From Candidatus Neomarinimicrobiota bacterium (lineage in GTDB: Bacteria; Fidelibacterota; UBA2242; B5-G15): a stretch of 11,756 nucleotides of DNA. The notes beneath the pieces were generated by a model. The model was given only the letters and a program-made list of their open reading frames with translations, searched no databases and was not told the DNA's origin. Positions within the stretch are counted from its first letter, which is position 1; every line of letters starts with the position of its first letter. Positions 2,131 to 11,485 of the stretch are shown here, piece after piece. The translations under genes and the position numbers were made by a program. The stretch spans positions 1 to 11,756 of the forward strand of contig JACDNV010000031.1 of assembly GCA_017656425.1 (NCBI GenBank), written 5' to 3'.

Positions 2131-2910
2131 ATGGTTGGAATTGGTCAAAAAGTAAGGAAGTTAAGAGAAAATTTAGGAATTAGTCAGCAAAGGCTTGCTG
2201 AATTGCTTGGTGTTTCTCGACCAACAATATCTCAAATAGAAAGAGAAGAAAGAAGAATATCAATCGACGAGATAATAAAACTGTCTGAAATATTCAACGT
2301 TTCCATAGAAAGTTTAATAAATATAGAAAAAGAACCGGAAATTATTTTAGAAAAAAATAGGAAAATAACTAAAGTAAAACCCCAAATTAGAATCAATGTA
2401 CCACAGAAAAAACTTGACAAATTTAAAGAAGTATTGCTATACATTTTAAATAAAGTTGGCTCAAAACCTAATGTTGGGGAAACTGTCATCTATAAGCTTC
2501 TGTACTTCATTGATTTTGACTTTTATGAAAAGTACGAAGAGCAGCTAATTGGAGCAACATATATAAAAAATAAATATGGACCAACACCCTTAGAATTCCA
2601 AGAAATTGTCAATGAGCTACTCGACAAAGATATTATCAGAGTAAAAACTGGATATTTCAAGTATCCCCAAACAAAATATTTACCCTTAAGAAAACCTGAT
2701 CTTGCAAAACTAAAAGCCCATGAGATTGAATTAATAGATGATGTTCTTAATAAACTCTCTGATATGAATGCTGCTCAAATAAGCGAATATTCACATAACG
2801 ATGTCCCTTGGTTAACAACAAATGATGGGGAAATTATTGAGTATGAATCTGTTTTCTATAGAACACCTCCCTATTCTGTGAGAGAATATAGTGAGGAAGA
2901 TTTTCAATGA
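2131..2910 (+). CDS. XRE-family HTH / Panacea-domain antitoxin (PanA-like)
   Basis: Residues 5-63 form a Cro/C1-type helix-turn-helix (GISQQRLAELLGVSRPTISQ) for DNA binding and autoregulation. A lysine-rich linker follows, then a Panacea (DUF4065/SocA-like) domain at about 95-245. Its family hallmarks are visible: KLLYFIDFD at 122-130, KYGPTPLEF at 148-156 and SEYSHNDVPWL at 218-228. Panacea domains are known to neutralise many unrelated toxins, and N-terminal DNA-binding fusions are common. The stop overlaps the start of the next gene by 20 bases, so antitoxin and toxin are translationally coupled in antitoxin-first order. ATG start at 2131 with SD GGATGG. The A-rich coding differs from the cluster at 4-10 kb. 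The antitoxin role is inferred from family and context. Confidence 0.85.
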   Translation: MVGIGQKVRKLRENLGISQQRLAELLGVSRPTISQIEREERRISIDEIIKLSEIFNVSIESLINIEKEPEIILEKNRKITKVKPQIRINVPQKKLDKFKEVLLYILNKVGSKPNVGETVIYKLLYFIDFDFYEKYEEQLIGATYIKNKYGPTPLEFQEIVNELLDKDIIRVKTGYFKYPQTKYLPLRKPDLAKLKAHEIELIDDVLNKLSDMNAAQISEYSHNDVPWLTTNDGEIIEYESVFYRTPPYSVREYSEEDFQ

Positions 2911-3271
2911 AATATCTTATCTGCCTGAATTTAAAAAAGATGCAAAAAAACTCCGAAAAAGATTTCAAACTATTAAAAGCGATTTGGAAATTTTTGTAGA
3001 AAAACAGCTTTTTCTTTATCATAAACTGAAAATTGATAACAAAGGAATTTTTCAAATTTCAGGCTTACATATAAATTATCCTAAAATATATAAAGCCAAA
3101 AAATTCGCATGTCGTTCTCTTAAAGGAAGAGGAGCTAAATCAGGTATTAGAATTATTTATGCTTATTATGAAGATAAAGATAAAATTGAGTTTATAGAGA
3201 TTTATTACAAAGGTGATAAAGAGAATGAAGATAAAGAAAGAATCTTAAGATATTACGAAAAAGAATATTGA
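2891..3271 (+). CDS. RelE/ParE-superfamily toxin (probable mRNA interferase)
   Basis: This 126-aa basic protein begins at a GTG inside the antitoxin gene. The N-terminal LPEFKKDAKKLRKRF (11-25) is the helical hairpin typical of RelE/YafQ-like toxins. The C-terminal half holds the beta-sheet core: SLKGRGAKSGIRIIYAYYED (77-96) with R80 and R87, then IEFIEIYYKGDKENEDKERI (99-118). Family members cut mRNA on the ribosome (RelE) or poison gyrase (ParE); the RelE side looks closer, but the catalytic set cannot be assigned with certainty. The 20-base overlap with the Panacea antitoxin supports pairing. The ATG at 2907 gives an unrelated frame and is rejected. No clear terminator follows. Confidence 0.8.
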   Translation: MRKIFNEISYLPEFKKDAKKLRKRFQTIKSDLEIFVEKQLFLYHKLKIDNKGIFQISGLHINYPKIYKAKKFACRSLKGRGAKSGIRIIYAYYEDKDKIEFIEIYYKGDKENEDKERILRYYEKEY

Positions 3272-3390
3272 ATAAATTAGGTCGTTGTAAATCTAAGATA
3301 AAGAATAGCATCGCTTAAGGAAATATATTAACCAAATTTTATATCAAGTAGAAAATATTGTATACAGTACCCACCTTAACTCTAATTATT

Positions 3391-3447
3391 ATGCCGAAGT
3401 GGCAAGTACCTTTAAGAAGAGAAGCTCTCACAAGGGCAACCCATCCT
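3391..3447 (+). pseudogene. Remnant of the fic 5' coding region (copy B)
   Basis: Positions 3391-3447 align without gaps with 81-137 of the Fic gene at the left edge, encoding MPKWQVPLRREALTRATH, after which similarity ends. The frame continues into unrelated repeat sequence (tail ttttgctcgcg ... ctgtgtgtcat, then a degenerate palindrome half) and stops. No Fic catalytic motif exists here. Copy C at 10718 loses similarity at about the same codon and has the same tail, so B and C probably descend from one truncated ancestor. Confidence 0.75.
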
Positions 3448-3481
3448 TATCATTTTGCTCGCGATAGTAGATTGTCTGTGT

Positions 3482-3522
3482 GTCATTGCGAGGAAGCCGC
3501 TTTTGTGGACAATGGAGCAATT
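3482..3522 (+). repeat. Degenerate palindromic half-element
   Basis: gtcattgcgaggaagccg followed by a decayed 3' end (gcaattc in place of gcaatct). It is the same family as the elements at 1228 and 11029, and sits just after fic remnant B as another one does after remnant C. Confidence 0.6.
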
Positions 3523-3915: not shown

Positions 3916-3945
3916 TTGACAATAGTAATATATATATATTATATT
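3916..3945 (+). promoter_or_regulatory. Strong sigma70-type promoter of the biosynthetic operon
   Basis: A perfect TTGACA -35 box (3916-3921), an 18-base AT-rich spacer and a TATATT -10 box (3940-3945). It lies about 50 bases before the GTG of the precursor-like peptide. No other promoter as good is seen up to 10452, and the genes are close or overlapping, so the six genes probably form one transcript. Confidence 0.65.
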
Positions 3946-3995
3946 ACATCATATTTTTTAAGGTAAATTGAAGCAAAAACAGGTAGGGAGAAGTT

Positions 3996-4163
3996 GTGGA
4001 TGTTGAGAGGATTAATCGAAGTGAGTCCAACGAACCCGGTAAAGGGGATTTAACATCTAAGGAGGATGAATTCTCTTTTTTAGAGCTGGAAGAAAGATTG
4101 GAAATGGAAGCTGCTCCGCCAGTTGATTCTCCTATTGAATGGAGAGTAGACTGGTATTTTTAG
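3996..4163 (+). CDS. Small acidic peptide, candidate RiPP precursor (55 aa)
   Basis: The GTG at 3996 has an AGGGAG Shine-Dalgarno (3985-3990) five bases upstream and follows the promoter directly. The 55 residues divide into a Glu/Asp/Ser-rich N-terminal part, an amphipathic stretch FSFLELEERLEMEAA (26-40) like a leader recognition helix, and a Pro-containing hinge before an aromatic C-terminus IEWRVDWYF (47-55) with two Trp, one Tyr and one Phe. There is no Cys, no signal peptide and no double-Gly site. First place in an operon with a PqqD-like domain, an M50 protease and an ABC exporter fits a ribosomally made, modified peptide. The W-R-V-D-W pattern resembles cross-linked cores of other families, but no radical SAM gene is nearby. 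That this is a precursor is inferred from size, composition and position; it matches no family I can name. Confidence 0.65.
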   Translation: MDVERINRSESNEPGKGDLTSKEDEFSFLELEERLEMEAAPPVDSPIEWRVDWYF

Positions 4164-4236
4164 TTGTTGTTCTGTAAAGCTTTCCTGCCTAAATATTGAT
4201 TCAACTACTTATTCTTTTTCTCTGCTGTGGTTTGGT

Positions 4237-4240
4237 GGAG
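4237..4240 (+). promoter_or_regulatory. Ribosome binding site that sets the start at 4247
   Basis: GGAG stands six bases before the ATG at 4247. The longer frame beginning at TTG 4196 has no such site and would add a 17-residue hydrophobic tail not expected in this enzyme family, so ATG 4247 is preferred. Confidence 0.65.
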
Positions 4241-4246
4241 CTTTAC

Positions 4247-6277
4247 ATGGTTATAGTGGAGATTAATATTGAGAAGGTTATATATGAGATTGATTGTCTT
4301 TTTCGTAAAGAGGTCGGTGAAATTCTGAATAACATGGAGCTCTGGGGTATTTTAGATGACAGCGAAGGTAACGGGAAGCGTGGGGGGTTTAATGTCCATT
4401 ATTATTACCCACTGCTTTTTTATGACTTTTATAAGGATATAGGAATAGGTTACTTTAAGATACTATCAGTTTATAGTAGGTTATTCTTGATGTATTGTTT
4501 GTTGGTGGATAGGATTACAGATGATTACAGAAGAACTGCGAGCCCAGAGGATATTTTGCTCCTGTCATCGCTCCAGAAAAGGGCTCTCAGCATCCTTTAT
4601 AAGATATTCGGTTCAGATTCTGAATTCTGGAGGTATTTTCACAGGTATTATTTAGATTACTTAGGGGCCGTTCTCAACGAACAGAATAAGCATTTTGATA
4701 GGATAAGCTCCTATCCTTTTGACGAATTTAAGAAGATAGCCAGCGGGAAATCTGCCCTGGCTAAAACCGTTACTGCTGCTTTGGGGATTTTGAAAGGATC
4801 AGAGAAGGAAATTGAGATTTTAGACCTCTCACAGGATTATTTCTATATCGCTTATCAGCTATATGATGATTTAGTCGATTGGAAAAAGGATATTGAGAAC
4901 AGACAATTTTCATATATATTGACAAAATTGATAATTGAGAATGAGATACCGGAGACCTGCATCAATTGTAACGTCATCAGGAAGTTTTTATTTTGTTCGG
5001 ATGTGGCTGAAGAGATTATGGAAGTGGCCAGAGAATATTACGAGAAAGCCTTAGAGGTTCTGGGGGATTACAAATTTCTTTCGTGGCGGAGAATAATACA
5101 TGATTATATGGATAGGTGTACTATATTAAGGGATGATATAATTAACATAAAAAGAAAAGTTAGACGCGGAGGTGGTAGCAAGACTCCAATGGGTGCTGGC
5201 TCTATGAGCAAGGTAGTTGTGAAAACAAGTGGTGGCCGTTTAGCTAAGGAAGTTATAGAAGAATCTGTTAAGCACTCTATAGAATTTCTTTTGAAGTTAC
5301 AAGGACAAAAGGGCTTCTGGGAGGATTTCCTGCTGGACGTGGGTTATTCGACGGAGTGGGTGACAGGATATGTCGGTAATTCGTTGATTTCTGCGATGGT
5401 TTTTAACGAGAGTATTAGGGATAAACTGAAACTTGCCTCCAGAGCTTTGATAGGGGCACAACATCCAATTGGGGGTTGGGGCTTTAATGAAGATAGCGGG
5501 GTAGATGCGGATTCAACATCAAATGTTGTAATTTTCTTGAGAAGAATGGGTAAGTTGGTAGGTGAGCAGGCTGTTAAAGTGTTGAAGGAAAATCAGAATG
5601 GAGATGGAGGTTTTGGTACATACTCAATCAAAGAAATACTACGAGAACAGGAAAAGCTGAATATAAACTTTTCTGCACCGATAGAGCTCTATGGCGGGTG
5701 GACGTCGTCAGACATACAGATTACAGCAATTGCAATACAGGCATTGTTGGCAATAGGATTGGAAAGAGAATCGGAAGTAATGAGAAGGGGTGTGTCATTT
5801 ATTATTGGCAAACAGCATAGCGAAGGCTACTGGGATGCATACTGGACAGAAGGGAAGATTTTAGGGACTTCTTTTTGTGTGCAAACATTGAATAAGTTTT
5901 GTAAGTGTGGTCGGTATATTAAGAGGGCCCTATTATGGTTGATCGACATACAGTCTGAAGAAGGTGGTTGGAGCAATCAGGTGACTCCTGTGTTGAATCC
6001 TTACGATACCGCGTTAGCTTTGCTGGCCTTTATGGTTAAAGGTAGTGGAATAGATTGTAGCAAGTCTATTAAAGAAGGGATTGAGTGGCTGATTGCAAAT
6101 CAACTGGAAGATGGGAGCTGGGAGTCATCTCCCATAATGGTAATTCCAAGACCGTGGGAGAAGAATCAGCCAAACAGGCAGTATAAAATGCCTGCCATCC
6201 GGGATGATAAGCGCATTTTCACTACTGCTACTGTTCTAAGAGCTTTGCTTGGATACTGTAAGTGGATGAGCGTCTAG
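4247..6277 (+). CDS. Fused class I isoprenoid-synthase-like / terpene-cyclase (prenyltransferase-repeat) protein
   Basis: A 676-aa two-domain protein. Residues 1-305 are all-helical and carry YQLYDDLVDWKKDIENRQ at 203-220, matching the second Asp-rich motif of trans-isoprenyl diphosphate synthases and class I terpene synthases. The first motif is unusual (VDRITDDY, 87-94) and may not bind Mg normally. A Gly/Ser linker (306-330) follows. Residues 331-676 hold prenyltransferase/squalene-cyclase repeats (QW-like GGWGFNED, GDGGFGTYS, GGWTSSDIQ, EGGWSNQ, DGSWESS). VDADST at 419-424 parallels the DxDD(T/S) acid motif of class II cyclases, with the fourth position Ser and the catalytic-acid position Asp422 kept. 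At about 345 aa this half is one barrel, shorter than hopene cyclase. It occupies the modifying-enzyme slot after the peptide. Possible roles are making and cyclising an isoprenoid, or attaching one to the peptide; sequence does not decide. Loss of catalysis in the first domain is also possible. Confidence 0.7.
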   Translation: MVIVEINIEKVIYEIDCLFRKEVGEILNNMELWGILDDSEGNGKRGGFNVHYYYPLLFYDFYKDIGIGYFKILSVYSRLFLMYCLLVDRITDDYRRTASPEDILLLSSLQKRALSILYKIFGSDSEFWRYFHRYYLDYLGAVLNEQNKHFDRISSYPFDEFKKIASGKSALAKTVTAALGILKGSEKEIEILDLSQDYFYIAYQLYDDLVDWKKDIENRQFSYILTKLIIENEIPETCINCNVIRKFLFCSDVAEEIMEVAREYYEKALEVLGDYKFLSWRRIIHDYMDRCTILRDDIINIKRKVRRGGGSKTPMGAGSMSKVVVKTSGGRLAKEVIEESVKHSIEFLLKLQGQKGFWEDFLLDVGYSTEWVTGYVGNSLISAMVFNESIRDKLKLASRALIGAQHPIGGWGFNEDSGVDADSTSNVVIFLRRMGKLVGEQAVKVLKENQNGDGGFGTYSIKEILREQEKLNINFSAPIELYGGWTSSDIQITAIAIQALLAIGLERESEVMRRGVSFIIGKQHSEGYWDAYWTEGKILGTSFCVQTLNKFCKCGRYIKRALLWLIDIQSEEGGWSNQVTPVLNPYDTALALLAFMVKGSGIDCSKSIKEGIEWLIANQLEDGSWESSPIMVIPRPWEKNQPNRQYKMPAIRDDKRIFTTATVLRALLGYCKWMSV

Positions 6278-6990
6278 TGAAGGAACGGAATAGGGCTGAG
6301 GTAATTCTTTCTGTTGAAGGTATATCCAAGACTTACAGAAAAAAGTGGATTTTGGATAATGTTAGTTTCGAAGTAAAAAGAGGAGAGGTTGTTGGACTAG
6401 TTGGCCCCAATGGATCAGGAAAGTCGACGACCATCAAGATTATATGTGGACTTGTTTTTCCTGATAGAGGAGATGTTAGGATAAATGGAGTAGGAGTATT
6501 CACTAATCCGCTGGTTGCCTTGAAACGGGTTGGAGCTTTGGTTGAAGGAGCACAATTTTACCCTTATCTCACGGCCTTCGAGAACCTTGAATTAATTTGT
6601 TCAATTTCTGGTCTGGATACGTCCCGGATTGACAGGCTGCTCAATTCCGTTGGACTGTCAGAGGCAATTCACGTTAAGGTGAAAGAGTTTTCTCAGGGTA
6701 TGAGGCAACGTTTGGGAATAGCGCAGGCTCTTCTAAAAGAACCAGAGCTTGTAATTCTGGATGAACCCACCAGTTTTCTGGATCATAATGGGATGGAATT
6801 GCTGTTTGGTATTATTCGTGAGTTGAAAGACTCCAGTAAAACCGCTTTTTTAATATCCGGCAACGATCTGAGTGGTATGAGTAAAATATGTAATAGAATT
6901 ATTGCTTTGAACAAAGGCAAGATAGTCGCAGATGGCTTTCTTGGAAATCTTTCAGAGGAAGGTGTTTCTTCTCTGGAAAAACTGTTTTGA
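6262..6990 (+). CDS. ABC transporter ATP-binding protein
   Basis: A single nucleotide-binding domain of 242 aa, cytoplasmic, expected to power export with the permease at 8573. Walker A GPNGSGKST is at 48-56, the signature FSQGMRQR at 143-150, Walker B LVILDEPT at 163-170 with catalytic Glu168, and the D-loop SFLD at 171-174. The Q-loop position has Glu95 (ALVEGAQFY), as is usual in the BcrA/CcmA-type branch. The H-loop, normally SSH, reads ISGND at 198-202, so the switch His is Asn201, which is unusual. The gene overlaps the end of the fused enzyme; GTG 6262 is given, but GTG 6277 (TAGTG overlap, GGATGAG six bases upstream) is equally plausible and removes only five residues. The ATPase and permease correspond to the yydI/yydJ pair of epipeptide clusters by role, not by demonstrated homology. 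Confidence 0.88.
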   Translation: MDERLVKERNRAEVILSVEGISKTYRKKWILDNVSFEVKRGEVVGLVGPNGSGKSTTIKIICGLVFPDRGDVRINGVGVFTNPLVALKRVGALVEGAQFYPYLTAFENLELICSISGLDTSRIDRLLNSVGLSEAIHVKVKEFSQGMRQRLGIAQALLKEPELVILDEPTSFLDHNGMELLFGIIRELKDSSKTAFLISGNDLSGMSKICNRIIALNKGKIVADGFLGNLSEEGVSSLEKLF

Positions 6991-7017
6991 ATCTGGATAT
7001 ATAGTGGAGGTAAAATA

Positions 7018-8568
7018 GTGAGTCAACTAAAAGTTCTGTTGTTTGTAAGTTTTTGGCTACTGATACTGGGTACTTTTCCTGCTGGATGGGCTGTTGATAA
7101 GGATTCATATTTTGAAGTTTATAAGTTCAGAATTAATGGTTGTATAAAGGATTATGTTATTGAGGACATAAATGGAGATGGCTTAAAGGATATAATGGTG
7201 TTCTATCAAAGGCTGGATTTACACAGGAATTTTTGTGCTGCGATTTATTATCAGAGCTCGGACGGCTTTAAGAGCAGACCGGATCAGAATGTCAGAATTG
7301 ATTCATCAGTGATTATTCTTGATTTAGCCAATATCGATCCAAGTCCTGCGTTGGAAATAGTGGCTATTGAGCCTGAGGGAGTGTTTTGTTATACCCGGCA
7401 TAAAGACGTTTTCGTGGATGTGCCAGAATTGCTTATAAAGGAGGAGTCGGTATTTAGAGTTCCGGGCCCTAGAAAACTTCTGTGGGACTTTTCGGAAGAT
7501 TTCGATAATGATGGGATAGATGAAATGGTTATTCCCGGGTTTGGCGGATTGAAGATTTATAAAAAAGGCGTAACCCGGGACGATTATCGTTTAAACTCTC
7601 TGTTACACGTTTGTCCGGATGTCATTCTGGAGGAATCTCAAGAGGTTGCAAAAAGCATTTCACCTATTTACAGAATTCCGAAAATGTTGTTTATGGATTA
7701 CAATAATGATGGGAAAAGAGATATCCTGGTTATTGAAAGATATGGTTTGAAGATCTTTTTTCAGAAAGGGGTGCCAATGTTTACTGATGAAAATTCTGCG
7801 CAACTACGACTGGGGTTCGGATATTGTAACACTTCGGCTATTTCGGTTGGAACCAGAGGGGACTCTAAAGAGAAAATAGGGATAGGTCATATAGTTGATC
7901 TGAATAATGATGGGTTTGTGGATTTAGTTGTGAATAAATTACAGAATAGAGGAAGTATGTTCAATCCGAAGAAGCAATTCCAGATATATTTGGGCAGAAG
8001 AGATGAGGAACATCCTTTAAATGGCAGTGTATTCGAAAAGGTACCGGATCAAATAATCACGAGTATGGGCTTTCAGATAGCCAGCCAGTTGGTGGATGTT
8101 AATAATGATGGAATGTATGATATTGTTATTCCTTATGTGGATCTGAATATATACAGACTCATTTCTCTTTTTTTAAGGGGGAAGATCAGAGTGGATGTTG
8201 TTTTTTATATTCAGGATGGTAATGACGGTTTGTTCAAACCTGAGAACTACCGCAGGAGTTTTAAAGTAGTGATGGGGTTTGGCGGTAGGGCCAGGGTTCC
8301 TGTATTTTGTGTCGATGGGGATTTTAACGGGGATGGTTATGTGGATCTGTTGACAAATGAAGGTGGGGACCTGTTGATCTTCTATGGGAAGATGGGTAAG
8401 GAGTTCAGTGAAAGGCCCGAGGTTAAGTTTCCTGTAGGTGTCCTGGCAGGGAGAGTGTTCAGTGTTACAGTAGCAAGAATAAATGACGATTTAAAATCCG
8501 ATGTTGTGATTGTTCCTGAGGCAGGAGATGCCAATAGCGACACAATCTTACTGTTGGTTACGGGCTGA
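7018..8568 (+). CDS. Exported FG-GAP/VCBS-repeat beta-propeller protein
   Basis: 516 aa, started by GTG with a perfect GGAGG (7006-7010) seven bases upstream. Residues 1-25 form a Sec signal peptide (Lys5, hydrophobic core 6-20, likely cut after AGWA at 25), with no lipobox Cys. The mature part carries six calcium-binding loops of the DxDxDG / DxNxDG type: DINGDG 50-55, DFDNDG 161-166, DYNNDG 227-232, DLNNDG 294-299, DVNNDG 360-365 and DFNGDG 435-440, plus a degenerate one near 488. Spaced about 65-110 residues apart, these predict an integrin-alpha-like propeller outside the cytoplasm. Such folds bind proteins or sugars rather than catalyse. Its place between the ATPase and permease suggests a part in export, display, self-protection or target binding of the product; none of these is shown by the sequence. 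Confidence 0.8.
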   Translation: MSQLKVLLFVSFWLLILGTFPAGWAVDKDSYFEVYKFRINGCIKDYVIEDINGDGLKDIMVFYQRLDLHRNFCAAIYYQSSDGFKSRPDQNVRIDSSVIILDLANIDPSPALEIVAIEPEGVFCYTRHKDVFVDVPELLIKEESVFRVPGPRKLLWDFSEDFDNDGIDEMVIPGFGGLKIYKKGVTRDDYRLNSLLHVCPDVILEESQEVAKSISPIYRIPKMLFMDYNNDGKRDILVIERYGLKIFFQKGVPMFTDENSAQLRLGFGYCNTSAISVGTRGDSKEKIGIGHIVDLNNDGFVDLVVNKLQNRGSMFNPKKQFQIYLGRRDEEHPLNGSVFEKVPDQIITSMGFQIASQLVDVNNDGMYDIVIPYVDLNIYRLISLFLRGKIRVDVVFYIQDGNDGLFKPENYRRSFKVVMGFGGRARVPVFCVDGDFNGDGYVDLLTNEGGDLLIFYGKMGKEFSERPEVKFPVGVLAGRVFSVTVARINDDLKSDVVIVPEAGDANSDTILLLVTG

Positions 8569-8572
8569 AGGT

Positions 8573-9370
8573 ATGTGGCTGAGAATTCGCAGAATTACTA
8601 TAATAGAGGCAAGAAAAATACTGAAGAAGAAAAGTATATGGGTGTTAGTCTCTTTGCTGATTGTTTTTCAAGCGCTGTTGACGTTATTCGGGATTGGCCT
8701 TACAGGAGGAACTGCTCTGGATAATGGGTATCAGATCAGCGCTTTGTCTGTAAAAGTGTCTTTGCAGTTTATAGTTCTATTCATATTAGTTGTTTCCTTA
8801 AAATCTATTTCTGATGAGGTGTCTTATGGAACTATTAAGATCATGCTGTCGAATTCAGTTTTGCGCCAGGATGTTGTTCTCAGCAAATTTCTTGCTGTAT
8901 GCCTTTTATCTTGGATTCTCGTGGTTACTGTAGGGGTTGTTGGACTTGTGCTGGGTGGTTTTTCTGCCGGGATGAGTGACCTCAAAGAAGGGGAATATAT
9001 AATTTTTTCGTCATTTTTCCTCTTAAAAAATTATTTTTACACTATCATTCTAACGCTACTATCATTGCCGCCTTTGGTTGCCTATTCTATTCTTTTTTCG
9101 GCTGTAATACGGAATCCGGGAGCTTCAGTGGGATTTGGAATAGCTATTTACTTCTTATTGCAGGTTTTTTCGGAAAGTTACTCCATTGAAGAATATTCAT
9201 TCACATACTATATATTCAGGCCGGTGGGTGAATATTACAGGATTGCCCACGGTGAATTACATAATTTGCTTACGGACTTAATTCATCTGATCGTTTCTTC
9301 TTCATTTTATGTAGTGATATTTATAGTTCTGGCAGTCTATTTGGTAAAGAGGATAGATTTTTGGGACTGA
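8573..9370 (+). CDS. ABC-2 type transporter permease
   Basis: A 265-aa integral membrane protein with about six hydrophobic segments, the first at roughly 24-45. After the second segment it has SDEVSYGTIKIMLSNSVLRQ, which matches the conserved cytoplasmic coupling region of ABC-2 permeases (E..GT...L....R). It should form the channel for the ATPase encoded at 6262. The ATG at 8573, four bases after the propeller gene's stop, is chosen; a longer frame back to TTG 8510 lies inside the upstream gene and adds a non-conserved polar stretch. The Shine-Dalgarno is poor (AAGG almost touching the ATG), so translational coupling is likely. The 3' end overlaps the next gene by 10 bases. The small size and partner genes suit export of a peptide or small lipophilic product. 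Confidence 0.82.
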   Translation: MWLRIRRITIIEARKILKKKSIWVLVSLLIVFQALLTLFGIGLTGGTALDNGYQISALSVKVSLQFIVLFILVVSLKSISDEVSYGTIKIMLSNSVLRQDVVLSKFLAVCLLSWILVVTVGVVGLVLGGFSAGMSDLKEGEYIIFSSFFLLKNYFYTIILTLLSLPPLVAYSILFSAVIRNPGASVGFGIAIYFLLQVFSESYSIEEYSFTYYIFRPVGEYYRIAHGELHNLLTDLIHLIVSSSFYVVIFIVLAVYLVKRIDFWD

Positions 9371-10452
9371 AAAAATGTCTGAACAAATACTGTATTCCTG
9401 AGTTGGTTGAAGGTGTAATAACTTGTGAACTTGATGCTGTCTATCGTGATAGCCCGAGGTATTTAATTGTTACTCCTGACAGGAGATATTTTGAGATTTC
9501 ATACTCAGTAAAAAGGGTAGTAGATTTTATAGATGGTAGAAGAAGAGTTCTGGATATTGTTGAAGAATTGAACTATCTCGGCTTTAGCTTCTCACTGTTA
9601 GATTTGATAAATGTTTTTGAACGTTTTTTGATCCCGTATGGCATAGTTATAATAGATGGGGAGAGGCTCAATGAAGCAAAAGGGGTAAAAACAACAGGTG
9701 TTTCCTATCTGAGGATGAAAAAAAATTTTATTAGTTACAACCACGTATATTTAATACTAAGGGTTTTCAGTAACTTTTTTAGGCTTAATATATGTATGTT
9801 TATATTAGCAGCTATTTTGTTGTCGCATATGCATTTGTATACCAGTTATCAGCAACCTGTACTCCAGCTGTCGAATACCCTCGATGTGATAGCGTTATGT
9901 GTTATTCTAGTTTTTTCTACATTCTTTCATGAGTTGGGCCATCTTTCTGCTGCGACCCATTTTGGTGTGAAATCAGGGAGCATTGGTTTAGGACTATATT
10001 TAGTTTTTCCTGTTTTCTATTCGGATATATCCGATATCTGGAAGCTGAACAGACATAAACGTATAGTCATCGATGTCGCTGGTGTTTATTTTAACTTGAT
10101 TTTTGTTGTATGCCTGTATTTGTTTTACATGTGTTTTAAGTACGACGTAATTATCCTGGCTATATATTTGATAGATTATAAGACAGTTATTTCGCTTAAT
10201 CCTTTTTTTCGGTTTGATGGTTATTGGATTTTGTCTGACGCTACTGGAATTACAAACATGAGAAGGAAATCTCAGTTGCTCATCTGCAAGTTGCTTCCCA
10301 GGGGTTTACAGGACAGAGTAGGTTGCGATTTTACTACCAGTGATTTATCCCCAAAAAATAAGATATTTTTAGTTCTGTATGCTTTTGTCTGTAGCTTGTT
10401 TTTTGTCTGCTTCAGTCTTAGAACGTTCTTTGTAGTCTTGCGTTTAGTTTGA
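9361..10452 (+). CDS. PqqD-like domain fused to membrane M50 zinc metalloprotease
   Basis: 363 aa from a TTG start with AGAGGA (9348-9353) seven bases upstream, overlapping the permease gene. Residues about 30-105 resemble a PqqD-like RiPP recognition element (YLIVTPDRRYFEISYSVKRV, then GRRRVLDIVEEL). The rest is a polytopic site-2-type protease: HELGH at 190-194 gives two zinc ligands and the catalytic Glu191, and NPFFRFDGYW at 280-289 gives the third ligand, Asp286. The stretch FPVFYSDISDIWKLNRHKR (216-234) is typical of peptide-zinc-metalloprotease proteins found beside RiPP clusters, such as YydH. All catalytic residues are intact. Inferred role: bind the leader of the small peptide and cleave it in or at the membrane before export. 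It is the last gene of the operon; no clear intrinsic terminator follows. Confidence 0.82.
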   Translation: MGLKKCLNKYCIPELVEGVITCELDAVYRDSPRYLIVTPDRRYFEISYSVKRVVDFIDGRRRVLDIVEELNYLGFSFSLLDLINVFERFLIPYGIVIIDGERLNEAKGVKTTGVSYLRMKKNFISYNHVYLILRVFSNFFRLNICMFILAAILLSHMHLYTSYQQPVLQLSNTLDVIALCVILVFSTFFHELGHLSAATHFGVKSGSIGLGLYLVFPVFYSDISDIWKLNRHKRIVIDVAGVYFNLIFVVCLYLFYMCFKYDVIILAIYLIDYKTVISLNPFFRFDGYWILSDATGITNMRRKSQLLICKLLPRGLQDRVGCDFTTSDLSPKNKIFLVLYAFVCSLFFVCFSLRTFFVVLRLV

Positions 10453-10717: not shown

Positions 10718-10840
10718 GATATTGTAGACAACCTGATTGAGATCTCCTCTGCAATAGAAATAATCCTGAATGCCTATCTTGTGCCGAAGTGGGAAGTATC
10801 TTTGAGAGGAAAGACATTAGTCGGGGCAACCCGTCCTTAA
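10718..10840 (+). pseudogene. Remnant of the fic 5' coding region (copy C)
   Basis: Positions 10718-10837 align without gaps with 18-137 of the left-edge Fic gene at an offset of 10700, including NLIEI.SA.EIILNAYLVPK. The frame then meets TAA at 10838, before any Fic catalytic motif. Substitutions are few in the first 80 bases and many in the last 40. The sequence after the break (ttttgctttgctcgcg ... ctgtgtgtcat) resembles that after remnant B at 3447. Confidence 0.8.
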
Positions 10841-10883
10841 CGAGTTCTCAGTTTTGCTTTGCTCGCGTGGGGTTTACCTGTGT

Positions 10884-10919
10884 GTCATCGCTAGGAAGCC
10901 GAAGGCGACGAAGCGATCT
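10884..10919 (+). repeat. Palindromic half-element after fic remnant C
   Basis: gtcatcgctaggaagccgaaggcgacgaagcgatct in pieces matches the plus form of the palindrome family (gtcattgcgagg ... gacgaagcaatct) with a few changes. Confidence 0.7.
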
Positions 10920-10972
10920 GTTTCAGGAGGTGTTTGACGCTCAAAACGTACCGCCATCGCCCTTGTTGAGGG

Positions 10973-11147
10973 AGATTGCCACGCTCCGCTTACGCTTCGC
11001 TCGCAATGACAGGGGAACCTCCCCAACTGTCATTGCGAGGAGTCCCATCGGGACGACGAAGCAATCTGCTCTGCTGGTGGAATAACATTAAAACATACTG
11101 TCATCGGCTCAATCAAAATAGATTGCTTCGCTAACGCTCGCAATGAC
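10973..11147. repeat. Composite palindromic repeat unit 3
   Basis: Minus, plus, minus half-elements at 10973-11010, 11029-11067 and 11120-11147. The middle element has hairpin GTCCC-atc-GGGAC at 11042-11054, with a loop base different from unit 1 while the stem is kept. The spacer ggaataacattaaaacat matches units 1 and 2. Confidence 0.8.
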
Positions 11148-11194
11148 AGGAAGGCTACCCGCAAACAACGAAGCAACCTTTACCAACGAGAAAC

Positions 11195-11213
11195 AAAAAA
11201 GCCCCGAAAGGGC
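11195..11213 (-). terminator. Short intrinsic-terminator-like hairpin on the minus strand
   Basis: On the minus strand, GCCC-tttcg-GGGC is followed by six T (11200 down to 11195). The stem is only four to five pairs. No minus-strand gene is seen that would use it; it may be a relic within the repeat. Confidence 0.35.
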
Positions 11214-11225
11214 CATTTTAGCTGC

Positions 11226-11337
11226 CTGTTGGCCTGTTGGCTTGATAGCCAGTTGGCTAGTTAGCTAGTTAGCCTGTTAGCCAGTTAGCTAGTTAGCTTG
11301 TTAGCCCGATAGCTTGATAGCTTGTTAGCTTGACAGC
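11226..11337. repeat. 8-bp minisatellite, right copy, first half (14 units)
   Basis: Fourteen consecutive 8-mers ending in GGC or AGC (ctgttggc, ttgatagc, tagttagc, ttgttagc, ccgatagc and so on) in unbroken phase. The last six correspond exactly to those of the left copy; the extra units lie on the outer side. Confidence 0.8.
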
Positions 11338-11358
11338 CAGTCAGACCATTTACCTCTC

Positions 11359-11478
11359 AGCCATCCAGCTACCTAGCCGTCTAGCCATTTCGCTATCTAG
11401 CCACCTCGCCATCCAGCCATCTAGCTATCCAGCCACCCAGCCACCCAGCTATCCAGCTATCTAGCCATCCCGCCATCC
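11359..11478. repeat. 8-bp minisatellite, right copy, second half (15 units)
   Basis: Fifteen 8-mers of AGCYAYCY type in unbroken phase. The first six are identical to the left copy, after which the order differs, showing unit gain or loss at the outer end. Confidence 0.8.
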
Positions 11479-11485
11479 CATCAGC

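Follow-up and report, generated by a model that had tools for sequence, protein, structure and literature searches.

The window, an 11,756-base stretch of DNA that is exactly the contig under study, contains a real and recurrent RiPP operon. The operon most probably makes a ribosomal peptide that carries a cyclised isoprenoid on a Trp residue, and then cuts and exports the product. As far as the family is covered by the review through which it is cited here (PMC13290415), the operon is not a new class but belongs to a young family that was first described in 2024.

Table 1. Features of the operon, with positions in the window
Feature	Position	Strand	Basis
Candidate sigma-70-type promoter, TTGACA-18-TATATT	3916..3945	+	11/12 consensus, top match in the window; unproven
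55-aa precursor peptide	3996..4163	+	ORF; Shine-Dalgarno-like GGGAG at 3986-3990
P domain of the fused maturase, trans-isoprenyl-synthase-like peptide prenyltransferase	4247..5170	+	Family profile, AlphaFold2, Foldseek
C domain of the fused maturase, MstE-type single-domain class II terpene cyclase	5222..6277	+	phmmer
ABC transporter ATPase, lantibiotic-protection/DrrA-like	6262..6990	+	Pfam, NCBIfam
Exported FG-GAP beta-propeller protein	7018..8568	+	Pfam FG-GAP_3; signal peptide by eye
ABC-2 family permease, partner of the ATPase	8573..9370	+	Pfam ABC2_membrane_2
M50 intramembrane metalloprotease with PqqD/RRE-like N-terminal domain	9361..10452	+	Pfam, NCBIfam, family profile

Six open reading frames follow each other on one strand with overlaps or short gaps, encoding a 55-aa peptide, a fused prenyl-synthase-like/cyclase protein, an ABC ATPase, an exported FG-GAP protein, an ABC-2 permease and an M50 protease (Table 1). 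The ORF list and the domain scans confirm this layout as it was given in an initial annotation of the sequence. The probable start of the fused protein is ATG 4247, which is preceded by GGTGGAG at 4234-4240, and not TTG 4196, so that its length would be 676 aa; the permease probably starts at ATG 8573. No other site in the window matches the consensus as well as the promoter proposed in the same annotation, but the total of promoter-like sites is the same as in shuffles (36 compared with 33 +/- 6) and shows no excess. The set of genes in the operon is more than a chance assembly because the same set recurs in other genomes and because the peptide matches the profile of the precursors found there.

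The P domain was found in 13 of 120 Hymenobacter-group genomes and, at E <= 1e-40, in nine further genomes from a sample of 395 Bacteroidota, which together make up 22 confident loci. Three weak matches in the same 395 genomes (E 6e-8 to 1e-14) have no accompanying protease. An M50 gene is adjacent to the P-domain gene or one gene away from it in 21 of the 22 loci. It directly adjoins the P-domain gene in all 13 Hymenobacter loci. Of the other nine loci, five have it next to the P-domain gene and three at a distance of one gene; it is absent from L063, where the contig ends about 0.9 kb past the peptide. The cyclase is fused to the P domain in 14 of the 22 loci and appears split in L063. The initial annotation had suggested a search for co-occurrence of the fused enzyme with PqqD-M50 proteins and a conserved short peptide, and with the protease in 21 loci and the peptide in nearly all, the recurrence supports its view that this is a RiPP-type operon whose peptide is modified by an isoprenoid enzyme. 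A tblastn search of plasmids added two from Hymenobacter. After the P-domain gene on these plasmids come genes for a PqqD-M50-like protein and for a peptide of 49-51 aa, and the annotation of every one is 'hypothetical protein'. Most other matches of the fused protein in that search were squalene-hopene cyclases, and those in Deinococcus and Streptomyces were not peptide clusters.

Both the prenyltransferase and the M50 protease have their closest relatives in L065, L066 and L071, as expected if the two genes have travelled together. In about 244 other genomes of the host's own phylum, neither the enzyme nor the protease was found with the fused protein, the M50 protein and the P-domain profile as queries; the match in L002 is an ordinary squalene-hopene cyclase. 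A scan of viral contigs with the P-domain and M50 alignments also gave nothing. Truncated extra copies of the prenyltransferase were seen at L018 9833-10552 and in L011 and L012 (Hymenobacter mucosus; Hymenobacter sp. DG01 plasmid).

Sequence matches of the P domain alone to prenyl synthases are marginal, and Pfam gives a weak polyprenyl_synt match on the fused protein (E 0.034). A profile built from 13 P-domain relatives matches polyprenyl synthases in the PDB with E 3e-4. The AlphaFold2 model of the domain has a pLDDT of mostly 70-95 from about residue 50 to 310, and VIA-align compares it with trans-prenyl synthases at Z about 20-22 over about 240-275 residues, so that the predicted fold is clearly of the trans-prenyl-synthase type. 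The top match in Foldseek is Ord1 (E 5e-4), a C15 farnesyltransferase of free Trp (PMC13290415). The preference for Ord1 over other synthases is not strong, because its Z in VIA-align is 19.5 compared with about 20-22 for the others. The domain contains the motifs D88xxxD92, K168, Q204 and D207-D208-xx-D211-xxx-D215, in which D88, D92, D207, D208, D211 and D215 are invariant across the 13 aligned relatives. Q204 stands just before the second Asp motif (Q204-L-Y-D-D), and a Gln just upstream of this motif helps to recognise the indole of Trp (PMC13290415). Two ordinary polyprenyl synthases are encoded elsewhere in the same genome and could be the source of the prenyl donor.

The C half of the fused protein matches the squalene-hopene cyclase C-terminal domain in Pfam/NCBIfam (8e-21), and phmmer aligns it over its full length with 8pak (E 3e-42), 8paj (5e-40) and MstE (5e-19). 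These cyclases are stand-alone proteins, whereas the homologous domain in the window is fused to a peptide prenyltransferase-like domain. An in-frame query found homologous C domains in 14 of 14 fused relatives. The acid motif, D420-A-D422-S-T in the window, is present in all aligned relatives except L040, a Hymenobacter C domain that has lost it. The AlphaFold2 model of the C domain has low confidence. The eight Bacteroidota relatives without a fused cyclase, together with the lost motif in L040, could be taken to mean that the P domain prenylates the peptide while the C domain is a mere scaffold that binds the leader or the lipid, with a linear, ComX-like product. This is unlikely for the window, in which the C domain keeps DADST and aligns from end to end with cyclases of the 8pak type, and the C domain of the homologue ChrPC cyclises the chain according to the review account of that enzyme (PMC13290415). 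The preferred reading is that the C domain cyclises the attached chain.

The short peptides of the relatives share a leader motif, F(x)4LxxRxE, in nearly all of the 22 loci. The leader of the window precursor reads FSFLELEERLE at residues 26-36 and retains the invariant F26, L31, R34 and E36 of the family, and the putative core is MEAAPPVDSPIEWRVDWYF, with Trp49 and Trp53. In a local hmmsearch with the profile of the relatives' precursors, the 55-aa peptide was the sole match among the ORFs of the window. The match is weak, with 13.2 bits and E 0.015 among 4,799 short ORFs, and 4 of about 19,400 shuffles of the peptide scored as high. An NCBIfam scan of five of the relatives' peptides gave no meaningful match. 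Several precursors in one locus are common, with four in L045, at least four in L044 and six in L070. The six tandem precursors of L070 have different cores, each with one Trp at +3/+4 after the motif.

Trp is the only constant core residue in the relatives' precursors. Some of the Hymenobacter peptides were first chosen by a filter requiring Trp, and the Bacteroidota peptides and profile matches were chosen without it. Modification of another residue, for example Tyr54, or of a backbone position would agree with L065, the closest relative by both P domain and protease, in which the precursors are Cys-rich and without Trp and no cyclase is present, and with the more distant L017, where a 76-aa peptide is by reading also Cys-rich and without Trp. 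Such a target is nevertheless improbable, since Trp is kept in the core and absent from the leader in 28 of 29 listed precursors, that of the window included, while other core residues vary, and since every characterised trans-IDS-like peptide prenyltransferase targets Trp (PMC13290415, a 2026 review). A core Trp is the favoured site. That the fused protein makes a free terpene as a class I chain builder and class II cyclase, like the fungal bifunctional diterpene synthases, with the 55-aa ORF being due to chance or a regulator and the protease and ABC genes being unrelated neighbours, has in its favour the terpene-synthase folds of both domains and the fungal copalyl diphosphate synthase prenyltransferase domains among the structural matches of the P domain, but is very improbable because M50 proteases and peptides of a conserved family repeatedly accompany the enzyme, the best Foldseek match is a Trp prenyltransferase and the contig has no terpene-tailoring genes.

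Two of the loci just mentioned differ in their gene content. L065 (21-6439) contains a TonB-receptor-like gene, a stand-alone P domain, a DUF4097 protein and an M50 gene together with the Cys-rich precursors. In L017 (8877-15814, Bacteroidetes WY2.bin60), a separate cyclase-like ORF with DLDTTS, a fusion of a P domain with a SPASM-like region, and radical SAM-like genes were recognised by reading along with the 76-aa peptide, and this locus is possibly a different terpene/radical-SAM RiPP.

The protease of the window matches Pfam Peptidase_M50 (3e-7), the daptide M50 model daptide_HExxH (5e-25; 88.3 bits, below the NCBIfam cut-off of 300) and the YydH/LiaK M50 model (7e-18, below the curated cut-off). 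It has the motifs HELGH and NPFFRFDGYW, and HExxH and DGYW are conserved in 21 relatives. The protein is presumed to be a leader peptidase. A PqqD part of the protease, claimed in the initial annotation, appears at the level of the family: a profile of the N-termini has PqqD (5sxy) as its best PDB match with E 3e-4, and TIGR03859 matches 5 of 10 members weakly, but the window protein alone has no significant Pfam match to PqqD. The AlphaFold2 model of the M50 protein is poor (pLDDT 45).

For the remaining genes, Pfam matches are ABC_tran for the ATPase (1e-33), ABC2_membrane_2 for the permease (4e-11) and FG-GAP_3 for the propeller protein (1e-23), whose N-terminal signal peptide was judged by eye. 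The ATPase also matches the NCBIfam model galliderm_ABC (2e-53, below cut-off). No relatives of the FG-GAP protein were found beside the Bacteroidota clusters.

These findings are consistent with the following order of events. The leader of the precursor (F26...L31..R34-L-E36) would serve as the recognition site for the maturase, for the PqqD-like domain of the protease or for both. The P domain, with D88/D92, D207-D215 and Q204, would transfer a chain derived from FPP or GGPP to Trp49 or Trp53. Asp422 of the DADST motif in the C domain would then protonate the far end of the attached chain and so fold it into rings. Removal of the leader, with a cut expected near MEAA|PP, would be performed by the M50 protease, and the ABC pair would export the product or protect the producer. 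For the exported FG-GAP protein, a possible role is to bind this product.

The closest described systems are ChrPC and NctPC (Hubrich et al. 2024, Chem 10:3224, reported here via the review PMC13290415). In ChrPC, according to the review, a trans-IDS-like P domain prenylates an internal Trp of a RiPP with C10-C20 donors and the C domain cyclises the chain; NctPC is a similar fusion with another prenyltransferase fold. In the terms of that description, both resemble the window enzyme in that one protein combines a prenyltransferase domain with a monodomain, MstE-like terpene cyclase, and the trans-IDS-like P domain is shared with ChrPC. The features of the ChrPC type found in the window are a trans-IDS-like domain, a fused MstE-like cyclase with the acid motif and a linked precursor with Trp in its core. 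Because the window enzyme has the ChrPC architecture, and fused prenyltransferase-cyclase maturases acting on Trp of RiPPs are described in the review, the initial annotation's statement that no RiPP class with this set was known does not hold. In addition to such a fusion, the window operon has the PqqD-like M50 protease, the ABC pair and the exported FG-GAP protein, and its host belongs to a phylum in which the other searched genomes lack the enzyme of the operon.

The operon also resembles ComQ/ComX and PalQ/PalX, in which a trans-isoprenyl-synthase-like enzyme adjoins a short precursor with a conserved Trp near the C-terminus, but these systems lack a cyclase fused to the enzyme. The leader of PalX is an NHLP leader, and PalQ requires a C-terminal Trp (PMC10853753). 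No ComP-ComA quorum-sensing kinase/regulator pair was found among the ORFs of the window scanned with Pfam. An M50 metalloprotease, a short precursor and ABC genes are likewise combined in the daptide (MpaP) and epipeptide (YydH/LiaK) clusters. These clusters have other modifying enzymes, and the window protease falls below the NCBIfam cut-offs of both.

The proposal that a terpenoid enzyme replaces the radical SAM enzyme is not valid as a general rule. Pfam finds a radical SAM gene beside the prenyltransferase-cyclase in L043, L066, L067 and L071, and one is present by similarity or reading in L064 and L017. The radical SAM enzyme and the prenyltransferase-cyclase are therefore modules that can be combined. 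As radical SAM genes and a P450 accompany several relatives, the terpene enzyme is an added module and not a substitute for radical SAM. No radical SAM match was obtained with Pfam among the scanned ORFs of the 11.8-kb contig, which ends there. In L043 (12327-16308), radical SAM and cytochrome P450 genes stand directly downstream of the protease, and L064 is similar by reading.

It is conceivable, though somewhat doubtful, that these loci form a separate branch of terpene RiPPs, characterised by a PqqD-like M50 protease of its own and by a short leader with F(x)4LxxRxE. Such a branch would be recurrent in Bacteroidota, with horizontal spread to another phylum, and prenylation-cyclisation would take place with or without radical SAM and P450 steps; the window would add the ABC pair and the FG-GAP protein as an export/immunity or receptor module. 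Gene-encoded peptides decorated with polycyclic terpenes were reported only in 2024, according to the review. The about 22 clusters, in which the leader motif is clear and the cores are hypervariable, offer material for studying which parts of the enzyme determine the chain length, the ring pattern and the choice of Trp. A likely dedicated protease can also be named for these clusters, while ComX is processed by unknown proteases (PMC10853753).

Repeats on the contig recur on seven other contigs of its own genome. This shows that the contig belongs to the genome, and misbinning was rejected on the same ground. The contig has a block of about 1.4 kb in two copies (19-132, 1092-1719 and 10719-11483), 89-96% identical in places, which consists of an N-terminal fragment of a Fic gene, an 8-bp tandem tract and dispersed repeats. 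Between the copies stand the operon and a toxin-antitoxin-like pair, which suggests that the region is an island gained or moved by recombination. In the pair (2131-3271), a probable toxin-antitoxin system, an HTH-Panacea (SocA-like antitoxin) gene overlaps with a gene for 126 aa that has no Pfam family. A third, decayed relic of the Fic N-terminus with 68% identity lies upstream of the operon at 3389-3499, and at 81-1025 there is a Fic/DOC-family protein with a winged-helix C-terminus that is cut by the start of the contig.
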